Shown: positions 12,648-49,309 of the stretch, piece after piece | How positions within the stretch are numbered: position 1 is the stretch's first letter | Layout of the letters: every line of letters begins with the position of its first letter | NCBI RefSeq assembly: GCF_000307165.1 | Contig: NC_018704.1 | Span: 1-64,000, forward strand | Direction: 5' to 3' | Source: Amphibacillus xylanus NBRC 15112 | GTDB lineage: Bacteria > Bacillota > Bacilli > Bacillales > Amphibacillaceae | Length of the DNA: 64,000 nt | Position numbers and translations under genes: made by a program | Notes under the pieces: generated by a model | Databases searched by the model: none | Told to the model about the DNA's origin: nothing | What the model saw: the letters and a program-made list of their open reading frames with translations, nothing else

Positions 12648-13979
12648 TTGAGATATATTAAGAAAACTATTGTAAAATTAATTATTTTAACATTTCTATT
12701 AAGTATTTTTCAACCAAATTTATTAAAAGTGAATGCACAATCACTTAATATAGAAGCAGAATCAGCTATTTTAGTAGATGCAGAGACTGGTGAAATCCTT
12801 TTTGCGAAAAATGCCGATTTAAAGTTACCACCAGCAAGTATGACAAAAATGATGACTGAGTATTTAGTTTTAGAAGCAATAGAGACTGGCCAAATTAGTT
12901 GGGATACAACAACTTGGATTAGTGACTATGCCTATTCGATTTCAGCTAATAACTCTTTTTCAGGAATTGGTTTAAGACAAAATAAAGATTATACAGTTCG
13001 TCAATTGTATGAAGGAATGTCAATTATCTCTGATAATGCGACGACTATTGCACTTGCAGAGATGATTGCTGGTTCAGAAGGCGAATTTGTTAAAATGATG
13101 AATGCAAAAGGTCAAGAACTAGGATTAACTGATTTTGAATTTGTTAATTCAACAGGATTACCGAATTCTAGCTTAGGAGAAAACTATCCAGAGGGCACAG
13201 ATCCAAATGGTGATAATTTAATGTCTGCTCGTTCAGCGGCACTTTTAGCTTATCATTTAATTAATGATTATCCTGAAGTATTAGACTTTTCAAGTACGAT
13301 TACATCAGAATTAGATGATCAACCACTTGAAAACTTAAACTGGATGCTTCCGTGGAATAATACTAACTTCGCTCAATATTATGTTGAAGGCGTAGACGGT
13401 TTGAAAACAGGTTACACAGATGTAGCTGGTTACTGCTTTACTGGTACCGCAATTAGAGATGGACGTCGTTTAATTACTGTTGTGATGCGTGCGGATAGTT
13501 ATGGTTCACGCTTTAAAGAAACAGCTAAGCTATTAAACTACGGATTTGGAGAGTTTGAGAAACTTGAATTATATGAAGCTGGTTATCAATTGGCTGATTA
13601 TGAAACGGTAGAAGTAGCAAAAGGAAAAGAGGATGTTGTTAATATTGAGTTAGCTGATCCAATGTCTACTTTAGTTCGTTTTGGTGAAGAAGAATCTTAT
13701 TCAATTGAGTATATTTTAGATGAGACAAAATTAAATGAAGATGGAAAATTGGTTGCACCAATTGAAAAAGGTGAGAAAATTGGTGTAGCTAAATTAAACT
13801 ATAACGGAAATGCTGATTATGGCAATATCTTATCAGATCATGATGGACAGACAGTTGATTTGATTACGTCAGATAGCATTGAAAAAAATAATTGGTTTAT
13901 GTTAATGATTGGAGCAATTGGCGATTTCTTTGGTGAGCTATTCTCATCAGTTGCTGAATCAGTATCTAATTGGTTTTAA
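12648..13979 (+). CDS. dacA: D-alanyl-D-alanine carboxypeptidase (PBP5 type)
   Basis: DacA trims the terminal D-alanine of peptidoglycan stem peptides outside the membrane. The three active-site motifs are present: SMTK (in PPASMTKMM), SDN (in IISDNATT) and KTG (in LKTGYTD). An N-terminal signal sequence ends near VNA-QS. A PBP5 C-terminal beta domain is followed by a C-terminal amphipathic/hydrophobic anchor (FMLMIGAIGDFFGELF). ATG 12633 lies within the GGGGGGT ribosome site, so TTG 12648 is the likely start (443 residues). Its place after guaB is the same as in B. subtilis. Confidence 0.95.
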   Translation: MRYIKKTIVKLIILTFLLSIFQPNLLKVNAQSLNIEAESAILVDAETGEILFAKNADLKLPPASMTKMMTEYLVLEAIETGQISWDTTTWISDYAYSISANNSFSGIGLRQNKDYTVRQLYEGMSIISDNATTIALAEMIAGSEGEFVKMMNAKGQELGLTDFEFVNSTGLPNSSLGENYPEGTDPNGDNLMSARSAALLAYHLINDYPEVLDFSSTITSELDDQPLENLNWMLPWNNTNFAQYYVEGVDGLKTGYTDVAGYCFTGTAIRDGRRLITVVMRADSYGSRFKETAKLLNYGFGEFEKLELYEAGYQLADYETVEVAKGKEDVVNIELADPMSTLVRFGEEESYSIEYILDETKLNEDGKLVAPIEKGEKIGVAKLNYNGNADYGNILSDHDGQTVDLITSDSIEKNNWFMLMIGAIGDFFGELFSSVAESVSNWF

Positions 13980-34165: not shown

Positions 34166-34383
34166 TATTAAAAGTCTTATATTCTTATAGTAATAAGAGT
34201 ATAAGACTTCTTTTTAAATAGTAAAAATCACCTGACAAATTAAATTAAAGATAATTTAATCTTTTAGAATAAACGTGATACAATAATAGTAAGAATTAAC
34301 AGAAGGCAATTTGATTAATAACGATGAATCGCCTAAATGCTTATTGTATAGGTTCGCTTCAGAAACAAAAGGGGAATAGAAAA

Positions 34384-37804: not shown

Positions 37805-38149
37805 ATGAACAAAAAAGAAATGTTTGATCAAGTATCAAATATGGAAGAACAAATCGGTCAACTTTACCAACAGCTTGGTGATTTAAAAGTTCATATAAAG
37901 GAACTTTTAAAAGAAAATCATCGAATCACAATTGAAAATCATCATCTTCGTCAGCGTTTAGATCAAGAAGTTAAAACAACTGAACAGGTGAATCGTGATA
38001 AGAGTGGTCAATCAAGCTTAATTGGTGAAGGCTATGATAATTTAGCGAGACTCTACGATGAAGGTTTTCATATTTGTAATGTTCATTTTGGAAGTCCTAG
38101 ACAGGACGAAGACTGCCTATTTTGTTTGCAATTTTTAAATAAAAAATAG
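37805..38149 (+). CDS. yabA: Replication initiation control protein YabA
   Basis: YabA restrains initiation by bridging DnaA and the DnaN clamp. The 114-residue protein has an N-terminal tetramerising coiled coil (about 1-60, [20 protein letters not shown]) and a C-terminal zinc domain (CNVHFG...DCLFC). ATG 37805 follows TGAGGTGG; the in-frame GTG 37793 lies inside that site. Both of its partners, dnaA and dnaN, are encoded in this window. Confidence 0.94.
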
Positions 38150-38163
38150 TATTGATAAGTGAG

Positions 38164-38264
38164 AAAGACTAGCTTATGGGTTTAAAACGACGGCTCATTT
38201 AATACGAGGAAAAAATGCGTACGAGATGGGCATCCGTTTTAAACACAGGAACTAGTCTTTTTTA
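38164..38264 (+). terminator. Long structured hairpin with T run between yabA and yabB
   Basis: AAAGACTAG (38164-38172) pairs with CTAGTCTTT (38252-38260). Inside it, GTTTAAAACG (38180-38189) pairs with CGTTTTAAAC (38235-38244), and GCTCAT (38193-38198) pairs with ATGGGC (38226-38231). Symmetric seven-base internal loops (38173-38179 and 38245-38251) separate the first two helices. A T run closes the element. At about 100 bases it is far longer than the other terminators here and could be a small RNA with a built-in terminator. Confidence 0.6.
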
Positions 38265-38297
38265 GTATTTGTAATTAAATTGTCGTGGAGGTTAGTT

Positions 38298-39035
38298 ATG
38301 GTCGATTTAATTGGGGATGAGCGTTTAGATCATCTCTTTACTGATCAATCAATTCAAATTATTCAAAGTCCAACAGTATTCTCTTATTCAATTGATGCTG
38401 TTTTGTTGGCGCGATTCGCATCGATGCCGTTAAGAAGAGGTAAAATCATTGATTTGTGCACAGGTAATGGAGTCATTCCGCTATTAATGAGTAAGTTTAC
38501 GGAAGTTCCTATCACAGGTATTGAGATTCAAAAACGCTTATATGATATGGCATGTAGAAGTATTTTGCATAACAAAAAGCAAGATCAGATCAATATGATC
38601 CACGGTGATATTAAAGATATGCCAGCCTATTTTGGTAATAATAAATTTGATCTTGTAACAGTCAATCCGCCGTATTTTAAGACGACAAGTGAAAAGCAAT
38701 TAAACAAAAATGATCATTTAACGATAGCTAGACATGAGGTATATGTGAGTTTAGAGCAGGTCATTGATGTATCTAGTCAATTAGTTAAGCCGGGTGGTAA
38801 ATTTGCGATGGTTCATCGCCCTGGTCGTTTAGTTGATATTGTTAACTTAATGAGACAATATAAGCTTGAACCAAAGCGAATCCAATTTGTTTATCCGAAA
38901 TCCGGGAAGGAAGCGAATATTTTACTTGTTGAGGGAATTCGAGATGGGAAACCAGATTTAAAGCTATTACCACCGCTTTATGTATATGATGAAGAAGGTA
39001 ATTATACAAAGGGGATGCAAGAACTTGTCTATTGA
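38298..39035 (+). CDS. yabB: tRNA1(Val) N6-adenine methyltransferase-like protein YabB
   Basis: A 245-residue SAM-dependent methyltransferase related to TrmN6, which modifies A37 of tRNA-Val. The SAM site (IIDLCTGNGVIPLLMS) and the catalytic NPPYF motif typical of N6-adenine methylases are present. The frame is open to 38280, but ATG 38298 lies behind GTGGAGG. It overlaps yazA by 11 bases. Confidence 0.9.
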   Translation: MVDLIGDERLDHLFTDQSIQIIQSPTVFSYSIDAVLLARFASMPLRRGKIIDLCTGNGVIPLLMSKFTEVPITGIEIQKRLYDMACRSILHNKKQDQINMIHGDIKDMPAYFGNNKFDLVTVNPPYFKTTSEKQLNKNDHLTIARHEVYVSLEQVIDVSSQLVKPGGKFAMVHRPGRLVDIVNLMRQYKLEPKRIQFVYPKSGKEANILLVEGIRDGKPDLKLLPPLYVYDEEGNYTKGMQELVY

Positions 39036-40170: not shown

Positions 40171-40232
40171 AGAGAGTCTTTCGATTGAATTAACCTATCA
40201 ATAATTCAAATACGAAAGACTCTGCTTTTTTA
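40171..40232. terminator. Bidirectional terminator between rsmI and abrB
   Basis: AGAGTCTTTCG (40173-40183) pairs with CGAAAGACTCT (40213-40223), extended inward by ATTGAATTA with TAATTCAA-type pairing. T residues follow on the plus strand and an A-rich flank serves the minus strand, so it can end the converging genes. Confidence 0.85.
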
Positions 40233-42916: not shown

Positions 42917-42963
42917 ATAAAAAACGGTTGTGACTATCAGAGAGATAGATACAATCGTTTTTT
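42917..42963. terminator. Terminator after metG
   Basis: AAAAAACGGTTGTGACTATC (42919-42938) pairs with GATAGATACAATCGTTTTTT (43-base span to about 42962) with a few wobbles and mismatches. The T run on one side and the A run on the other make it usable in both directions. Confidence 0.8.
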
Positions 42964-43063: not shown

Positions 43064-43128
43064 AGGCCAGTAGATTCCTTTATCATTAAGTCGACGAAAA
43101 CCAATTTAAAGGAGAATCTACATGGCCT
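43064..43128 (+). promoter_or_regulatory. Inverted repeat hiding the transposase ribosome site and ATG
   Basis: AGGCCA at 43064-43069 can pair with TGGCCT at 43123-43128. TAGATTC (43071-43077) pairs with GAATCTA (43114-43120), and CTTTA with TAAAG before it. In RNA read in from outside, this stem would bury AAAGGAG and the ATG at 43122. Several insertion sequences use such hairpins to prevent transposase translation from read-through transcripts. Confidence 0.6.
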
Positions 43129-43193: not shown

Positions 43194-43262
43194 AGGAACG
43201 AAAGCAAGAGGAAACTGCTTAGTTAAAATAGCAGCCATTTAATTAAGAAGTGAAAAACAGCA

Positions 43263-43415
43263 GGTGAAATACACGAGACTCCTGTGGGAATAAATCTTTT
43301 CGCTGTGACGAGTAATCGCAGTCCCAGTACGAGCTGAAGATCCACTCAGGCAAGCGCTCTTTGCTTACCTTAGTTAGCTAAAAGCCGTGCCTGCGAAAAG
43401 CGAGTGTGTTTCACC
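43263..43415. repeat. Bacillaceae-type interspersed palindromic repeat
   Basis: The element is bounded by GGTGAAATACAC and its near-complement GTGTGTTTCACC. It contains phrases seen in abundant intergenic repeats of Bacillaceae (GAGACTCCTGTGGG, GAGCTGAAGATCCAC, GCCTGCGAAAAGCGAG). It is more GC-rich than its surroundings, has no coding frame, and sits beside the IS remnant. Only one copy lies in this window. The rest of the gap up to tatD holds no gene. Confidence 0.65.
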
Positions 43416-47424: not shown

Positions 47425-49309
47425 TGTGCCCAGCATGGGTGCAGACTCTAGGGTGAAAGTCCCGAACAGTGAAGGCAGTAGTAGCTGTAGCTTAAGACAA
47501 GGATATGACAAGTGACCGTCATATCTGAAGGAAGTCGGCGGCAAACCTCCGCTCCGAGGAACACGAACCTCATATAAGGCTAAGTAATACTGGATGAGTT
47601 TGCAACACAAAACAAAGTCCTTACTGTCAAAGGTATTATAGAGTAAATGAGGCGGGGACATGGAGGGAAAGTCTGTACCCTTACCTGGGGAGAACCTGTT
47701 GGAACGCCATGCACACATGGTAAGCAACTCCGTGAAGGGTTGTTGAACAACAGGCGTCAGCAGACGTCATAGTACCTGTTTACTTAAGGAAACAGGGAAG
47801 GACTGAACCAAGTATGAAGAATCACATCTAGGCGTTCATTCCGTTCAATGAAGCAGTAAAAGATAACAACCTACTTTAAGGAGGAGATGGTGAATCCCAT
47901 CAGGGACTTAAAGAGGGTGGAGAATGGAATGGCACAAGAAGAACCGTGATTCACGCAGGAGGAATATCAAATGATGGAACAGATTCTGTCACGACCAAAT
48001 CTTTTAAAAGCAATCAAACGCGTAGAAAAGAATAAGGGAAGCCATGGTATTGACCAAATGCCCACAACAGACCTAAGGGTGTATGTGATGGAGAATTGGC
48101 ATACCATGCGTGAACAACTGTTATCTGGTACCTATCAACCGCAACCCGTGCGACGGGTCGAAATCCCGAAACCTAACGGCGGAGTTAGAAAATTAGGTAT
48201 CCCTACAGTGACAGATCGTCTTATCCAACAGGCAATTGCCCAACAACTAACGCTAGTATTTGATCCGACATTTTCAGAATTCAGTTATGGATTCCGTCCA
48301 AATAGAAGGGCGCATACAGCGGTCAAACAGGCAAGAGCTTACATTGAAGAAGGATATCGCTGGGTTGTAGATATGGATCTAGAGAAGTTCTTCGATAAAG
48401 TGCATCATGATCGCCTTATGGCGAGACTTGCGACTAGAATTAAGGACAAAGTATTACTGCATCTCATTCGTCAGTTTCTACAAGCGGGTGTAATGGAAAA
48501 TGGGCTCGTCAGCCCAATGACAGAAGGAACACCTCAGGGTGGCCCGTTAAGTCCACTACTTTCAAATATCGTACTGGATGAATTAGACAAGGAACTAGAG
48601 AAGCGTGGTCATAAATTTGTCCGATATGCCGATGATTTCCATATTTATGTGAAGTCAAGCCGAGCAGGAGAACGTGTGATGGAATCGATCACGACTTTCA
48701 TTGAAAAGAAACTACGCCTCAAGGTAAATCGTGAGAAAAGCGCAGTAGACCGCCCATGGAAACGTAAACTTTTGGGATTTAGCTTTACATGGAATAAGAA
48801 GCAACCTAAAATCCGATTAGCAGAAGAAACCATCAAGCGGTTCAAAGCTCGTATAAGACAATTAACATCAAGGAAATAACGTATATCTATGGAGCAACGT
48901 ATTGATAAACTAAATAGCTATCTAGTCGGTTGGTTGGGTTATTATCAATTAATTGATACACCAAGCAATCTAACAATATTAGAATCATGGCTAAGTCGAA
49001 GACTTCGAATGATACGCTGGAAAGAATGGAAATTACCCAGAACGAAAGTAAGGAATCTAATATCGTTAGGGATTTCTCCACAGAAAGCTTATGAATGGGG
49101 AAACTCTCGAAAAGCATACTGGCGTATCGCGAAAAGTCCAATACTACACAGAACCCTAGGCAAAGCCTACTGGGCTAACCTAGGGTTAAAGATCATATCT
49201 GCAAGATATGAGATTCTGCGTTCGACATAATTTGGAACCGCCGTATACGAGAACCGTATGTACGGTGGTGTGAGAGGGACGGAGGTTAGTCACCTCCCCC
49301 TATCTCAAT
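47424..49309 (+). mobile_element. Group IIC intron, Oceanobacillus iheyensis-like
   Basis: The 5' end GTGTGCCCAGCATGGGTGCA and the next 150 bases closely resemble, from memory, the crystallised O. iheyensis group IIC intron. The catalytic domain V lies at about 49235-49268 (ACCGCCGTATAC pairing with GTATGTACGGTGGT). Domain VI follows, with GGAGG pairing to CACCTCC and a candidate branch A before CTCAAT. A reverse transcriptase frame sits in domain IV. Insertion directly after a terminator hairpin is the hallmark of class C introns. The 3' end is uncertain by a few bases and abuts the vanZ stop codon. Confidence 0.9.
47971..49230 (+). pseudogene. ltrA: Group II intron reverse transcriptase/maturase with an in-frame stop
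   Basis: The frame encodes the intron-borne reverse transcriptase and maturase. RT blocks are present: the substrate region SYGFRPNRRAHTAV, the first Asp in VVDMDLEKFFDKV and the catalytic RYADD. After 302 codons the frame meets TAA at 48877-48879. The same frame then continues for a further 117 codons (SMEQRIDKLNSYLVGWLGYY and onward), which is the normal thumb/maturase and C-terminal segment. An intact relative would read tryptophan at about this point. A single nonsense change therefore splits the protein between RT and maturase parts, and it is probably non-functional unless read through. Confidence 0.88.

Follow-up and report, generated by a model that had tools for sequence, protein, structure and literature searches.

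The long inverted repeat between yabA and yabB in Amphibacillus xylanus NBRC 15112 is most probably (about 84%) the intrinsic (Rho-independent) terminator of holB-ricT-yabA, with a basal stem that is inherited and an upper stem that is a lineage-specific extension. The repeat occupies positions 38164–38260 (+) of the window (the whole 64,000-nucleotide stretch of DNA that was analysed), between the yabA stop codon at 38149 and the yabB ATG at 38298. The most fitting reading places it in the ordinary terminator class, as a genuine member of unusual length. A literature search (yabA/yabB, terminator, Bacillus subtilis, trmN6) returned nothing on this site.

The two arms, 38164–38206 and 38218–38260, form a continuous bulge-free duplex of 43 opposed positions, of which 35 are paired (32 Watson–Crick and 3 G-U pairs, with 8 mismatches). 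Along the hairpin the helices contain 9, 2, 2, 10, 8 and 4 pairs, separated by symmetric internal loops, and four weak A-U/G-U pairs are added at the foot (38160–38163/38261–38264). These values replace the helices of 9, 10 and 6 pairs proposed in an earlier sequence-only reading, which had also drawn the loop at 38199–38225; the apical loop is confined to 11 nt at 38207–38217 and exposes AGGAAAAAAUG (Table 1). The minimum free energy of 38140–38275 is –42.7 kcal/mol compared to –20.76 ± 3.14 kcal/mol for shuffled sequences (z = –6.99), and none of 200 shuffles folds equally well, which bears out the earlier claim of a stable T-tailed hairpin with symmetric internal loops between the two genes. 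In a fold scan of the window (1,599 windows of 116 nt on the + strand, taken every 40 nt and with one set on the element itself) the element has z = –8.50 and is among the two most extreme windows, the other being a hairpin near 13961 (z = –8.53).

Table 1 Features of the yabA-yabB gap, its flanking genes and other terminator-like hairpins in the window
Feature	Position	Strand	Description
yabA	37805–38149	+	NCBIfam NF009644.1, 168 bits vs cut-off 130; last gene of holB-ricT-yabA
Terminator hairpin, predicted intrinsic	38160–38264	+	105 nt; 39 pairs, of which the 4 at the foot are weak
Basal helix, 5′ arm	38164–38172	+	9 pairs with 38252–38260; homologous to terminator stem of relatives
Middle helix, 5′ arm	38180–38189	+	10 pairs with 38235–38244; unconserved among relatives
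Upper helix, 5′ arm	38193–38200	+	8 pairs with 38224–38231
Helix above upper helix	38203–38206/38218–38221	+	4 pairs
Apical loop	38207–38217	+	11 nt, purine-rich
U tract	38258–38263	+	six T, directly 3′ of stem
16-codon reading frame	38215–38265	+	GAGG 5 nt upstream; start within apical loop
yabB, trmN-like methyltransferase	38298–39035	+	GGAGG at 38287–38291; NCBIfam matches under curated cut-offs
Terminator-like hairpin	34172–34209		17 pairs
Terminator-like hairpin	40173–40223		19 pairs
Terminator-like hairpin	42919–42963		19 pairs
Terminator-like hairpin	43064–43128	–	26 pairs

We compared the element with a genome sample of 464 kb composed of the window and 20 evenly spaced 20-kb stretches. 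Only two inverted repeats with at least 35 of 43 positions paired and a loop of 3–15 nt occur in this sample, and none reaches 35/43 in three Markov-resampled copies of the 464 kb, where the best has 33. The other such repeat lies at L155:15361–15453 (2490361–2490453 of the same genome), with 36/43 positions paired and a loop of 7; a second site, 159116–159158, matches one half of it. The sample also contains 407 terminator-like noncoding hairpins, with a median of 17 pairs and a 99th percentile of 41, compared to 39 pairs in the element, which ranks seventh among them by energy. Above it stand a palindromic repeat, whose two copies each count once per strand, a composite hairpin and a hairpin scored as coding, and behind it come several single terminators of 67–81 nt with 26–32 pairs. 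The element is the tail of a distribution and not a separate class. Since 39 pairs lie far above the median of 17, the designation “ordinary terminator” alone leaves its length unexplained. Within the window it is the most stable of the terminator-like hairpins compared. Others among them have 15–26 pairs (e.g. 43064–43128 on the – strand), and the terminators of the window are not all simple stems of 7–13 pairs as described before.

A palindromic repeat of about 130 bp with a folding energy of about –67 kcal/mol is present in multiple copies, at 43257–43415 in the window, L150:13009–13139 and L149:12275–12404. BLAST gives 63 matches to it in the genome, partial pieces and both orientations counted, nine of which are nearly full-length and run in the same direction as the query. 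Diverged copies are found in the yabA-yabB gaps of four relatives (L022, L024, L025 and L051). Elsewhere in the window, 47505–47803 (+) matches Rfam group II intron domains in two pieces.

The gene yabA is present in all 61 genomes searched, and also at 75 named loci. Removal of 14 duplicates from 125 loci left 111 distinct loci; subtracting 34 with yabB out of reach and 2 with a gap shorter than 15 nt gives 75 yabA-yabB gaps, including the window's own. An unbranched T-tailed hairpin with an energy of –10 kcal/mol or lower occurs within the first 200 nt in 68 of these 75 gaps, compared to 51 of 225 dinucleotide shuffles of the gaps under the same criterion. This implies that a terminator at the yabA-yabB site is the rule. 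Some T-tailed hairpin is found in 72/75 gaps when up to 500 nt are searched, a count that takes in some chance or composite folds of long gaps (e.g. L037, L058, L064 and L107) and stands beside the controlled 200-nt count.

The common form of the terminator in closer relatives is a GGACTGA...TCAGTCC stem of ~40–57 nt. From 24 terminators picked by the core motif, 19 were aligned (rows L028 and L044 trimmed); L073 and L122, which are no real terminators, and L027, L031 and L116, which have other stem types, were left out. In these 19 selected rows all 132 of 132 cells over the seven basal pairs are paired, and two-sided changes occur at four of the seven. The covariation score of the basal stem is 0.316 compared to 0.200 for shuffled alignments, and slid controls all score lower. 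The core motif forces columns 8–11, and the free evidence therefore comes from columns 7, 12 and 13, in which all three pairs are formed and all covary. At columns 7 and 12 the window's own stem has A-U where the common form has G-C, and at column 13 it has G-C in place of A-U, with pairing kept throughout. The basal stem is thus homologous to the terminators of relatives and is held by compensatory change.

Conservation of the pairing in relatives, which the sequence-only reading had made the touchstone of its proposals, holds for the base of the stem and is lacking in the rest. Pairs were counted on the basal stem alone, as the inner helices could not be aligned with any relative; the upper two-thirds of the stem are unconserved. 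Whole-genome DNA search did not find the inner sequence in the other two genomes of the genus, and 158 other genomes of the family gave no credible DNA match, only matches of 20 and 34 bases. Among the congeners only L010 has a readable gap, which carries a long hairpin of its own (89 nt, 31 pairs) with an unrelated inner sequence. The missing inner matches and the unrelated sequence in L010 together imply that the extension evolves fast. The other congener locus, L009 (G001 contig 12), is uninformative: the contig stops 119 nt past yabA, perhaps at a rearrangement or an assembly break, and no terminator-like hairpin was found in these 119 nt.

An upper stem of this kind might have arisen from a mobile palindrome of MITE or REP-like type that was inserted in the loop of an old terminator and has since decayed. 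In favour of this, the inner part, which relatives lack, forms an imperfect palindrome free of bulges, and a palindromic repeat of ~130 bp is indeed present in multiple copies in the genome. That repeat, however, does not match the element, and no second copy is found in the genome, where the best other match is 18 bases long (E 0.5), in plasmid and phage DNA, or in the family. We regard such an origin as highly improbable. Identity as a copy of a MITE/REP-type repeat is rejected, as the element is single-copy.

It is very unlikely that the hairpin serves as a 3′-UTR-derived small RNA, cut from the yabA mRNA (e.g. by RNase III) and acting in trans with the purine-rich loop as contact. A very stable U-tailed hairpin with an exposed AGGAAAAAAUG loop would suit this role, but the loop and upper stem are unconserved in the congener and in the family. 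No Rfam family matches the element at the gathering threshold. At E ≤ 10 there are eight sub-threshold matches, the best with 22.1 bits compared to a gathering threshold of 160, and they are mostly to microRNA-precursor families, as any long hairpin would give. A search for sigma-70-like promoters in 38000–38400 found none, compared to 1.5 expected by chance. With the inner two-thirds unmatched and L010 different, the earlier suggestion of a small RNA released from the operon finds no support; no new RNA family was found.

We also give very little weight to a regulated attenuator for yabB-yazA-rsmI, in which a protein, a ligand or a ribosome on the 16-codon frame would switch the RNA between the hairpin and an antiterminator. 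The site ahead of yabB, where no promoter was found, and the GAGG and ATG of a frame that starts in the loop would fit such control. Relatives, however, conserve neither an alternative pairing partner nor the inner sequence, and the frame is probably due to chance and not a gene. Frames like it number 58 per 162,394 noncoding strand-bases, or 0.046 per 130 nt, and this one is unconserved in the congener. Its stop codon (38263–38265) ends past the U tract, and a terminated RNA would therefore lack it. The sequence-only reading had proposed a terminator with a regulatory fold; the terminator agrees with the common presence of terminators at this site and the covarying basal stem, and the regulatory fold is left with no inner match and no Rfam family. 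Neither a small RNA nor a ligand-sensing fold has support. Least probable of all is a recently evolved bifunctional terminator with a ribosome-binding site and start codon in the loop, where a loading ribosome would open the stem in read-through RNA and couple translation to yabB.

Upstream of the hairpin, holB, ricT and yabA all exceed their NCBIfam cut-offs, as does rsmI downstream. For yabB the only matches are to methyltransferase models and fall short of the cut-offs, and NCBIfam gives no match for yazA, so the names yabB and yazA reflect position and the labels of the sequence-only reading only. The hairpin ends 34 nt before the start of yabB, and this spacing is below 45 nt in 31 of 66 gaps (gaps of up to 500 nt). 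From the lack of a sigma-70-like promoter together with the 34-nt distance we infer partial read-through, on which expression of yabB-yazA-rsmI would at least partly depend.

The element resembles the intrinsic terminators of Bacillota in its GC-containing basal stem, its U tract and its site after the last gene of an operon, and homologous terminators occupy the same place in most relatives. It differs from typical ones in its size of ~97–105 nt and 35–39 pairs. A 2025 atlas gives median hairpin lengths of 20–28 nt outside Streptomyces and Enterococcus faecalis (PMC12207403). As described there, its TransTermHP-based annotation accepts stem-loops of up to 59 nt and loops of up to 13, and would therefore skip the element. 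The closest precedent for the proposed mechanism is in Ruminiclostridium cellulolyticum (PMC9045158). In its ABC importer operons, internal terminators whose long stems contain unpaired regions midway were shown experimentally to pass part of the transcription and set the ratio of the flanking transcripts, and stem length altered termination efficiency non-monotonically. The element shares with them the long stem with mid-stem unpaired stretches, the U tract that pairs with upstream bases, and the location between consecutive same-strand genes. The genes and the organism are different, and termination at the element is predicted from sequence.

In the proposed mechanism, once the polymerase has passed 38260 the nascent RNA would fold into the long hairpin, with the six U following immediately. 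Hairpin and U tract would cause the polymerase to pause and release, leaving the yabA mRNA with a stable 3′ end. Polymerases that escape the hairpin would transcribe on into yabB-yazA-rsmI, and the element would therefore probably hold the dosage of these genes at a lower level. The extension of the upper stem may be tolerated or mildly useful, through mRNA stability or termination strength, with no conserved sequence. The case shows that the basal stem can persist at a conserved terminator site even as the remaining hairpin approximately doubles in length and all its sequence similarity is lost. Terminators this long lie beyond the 59-nt limit that a common annotation pipeline applies, and may be under-counted.
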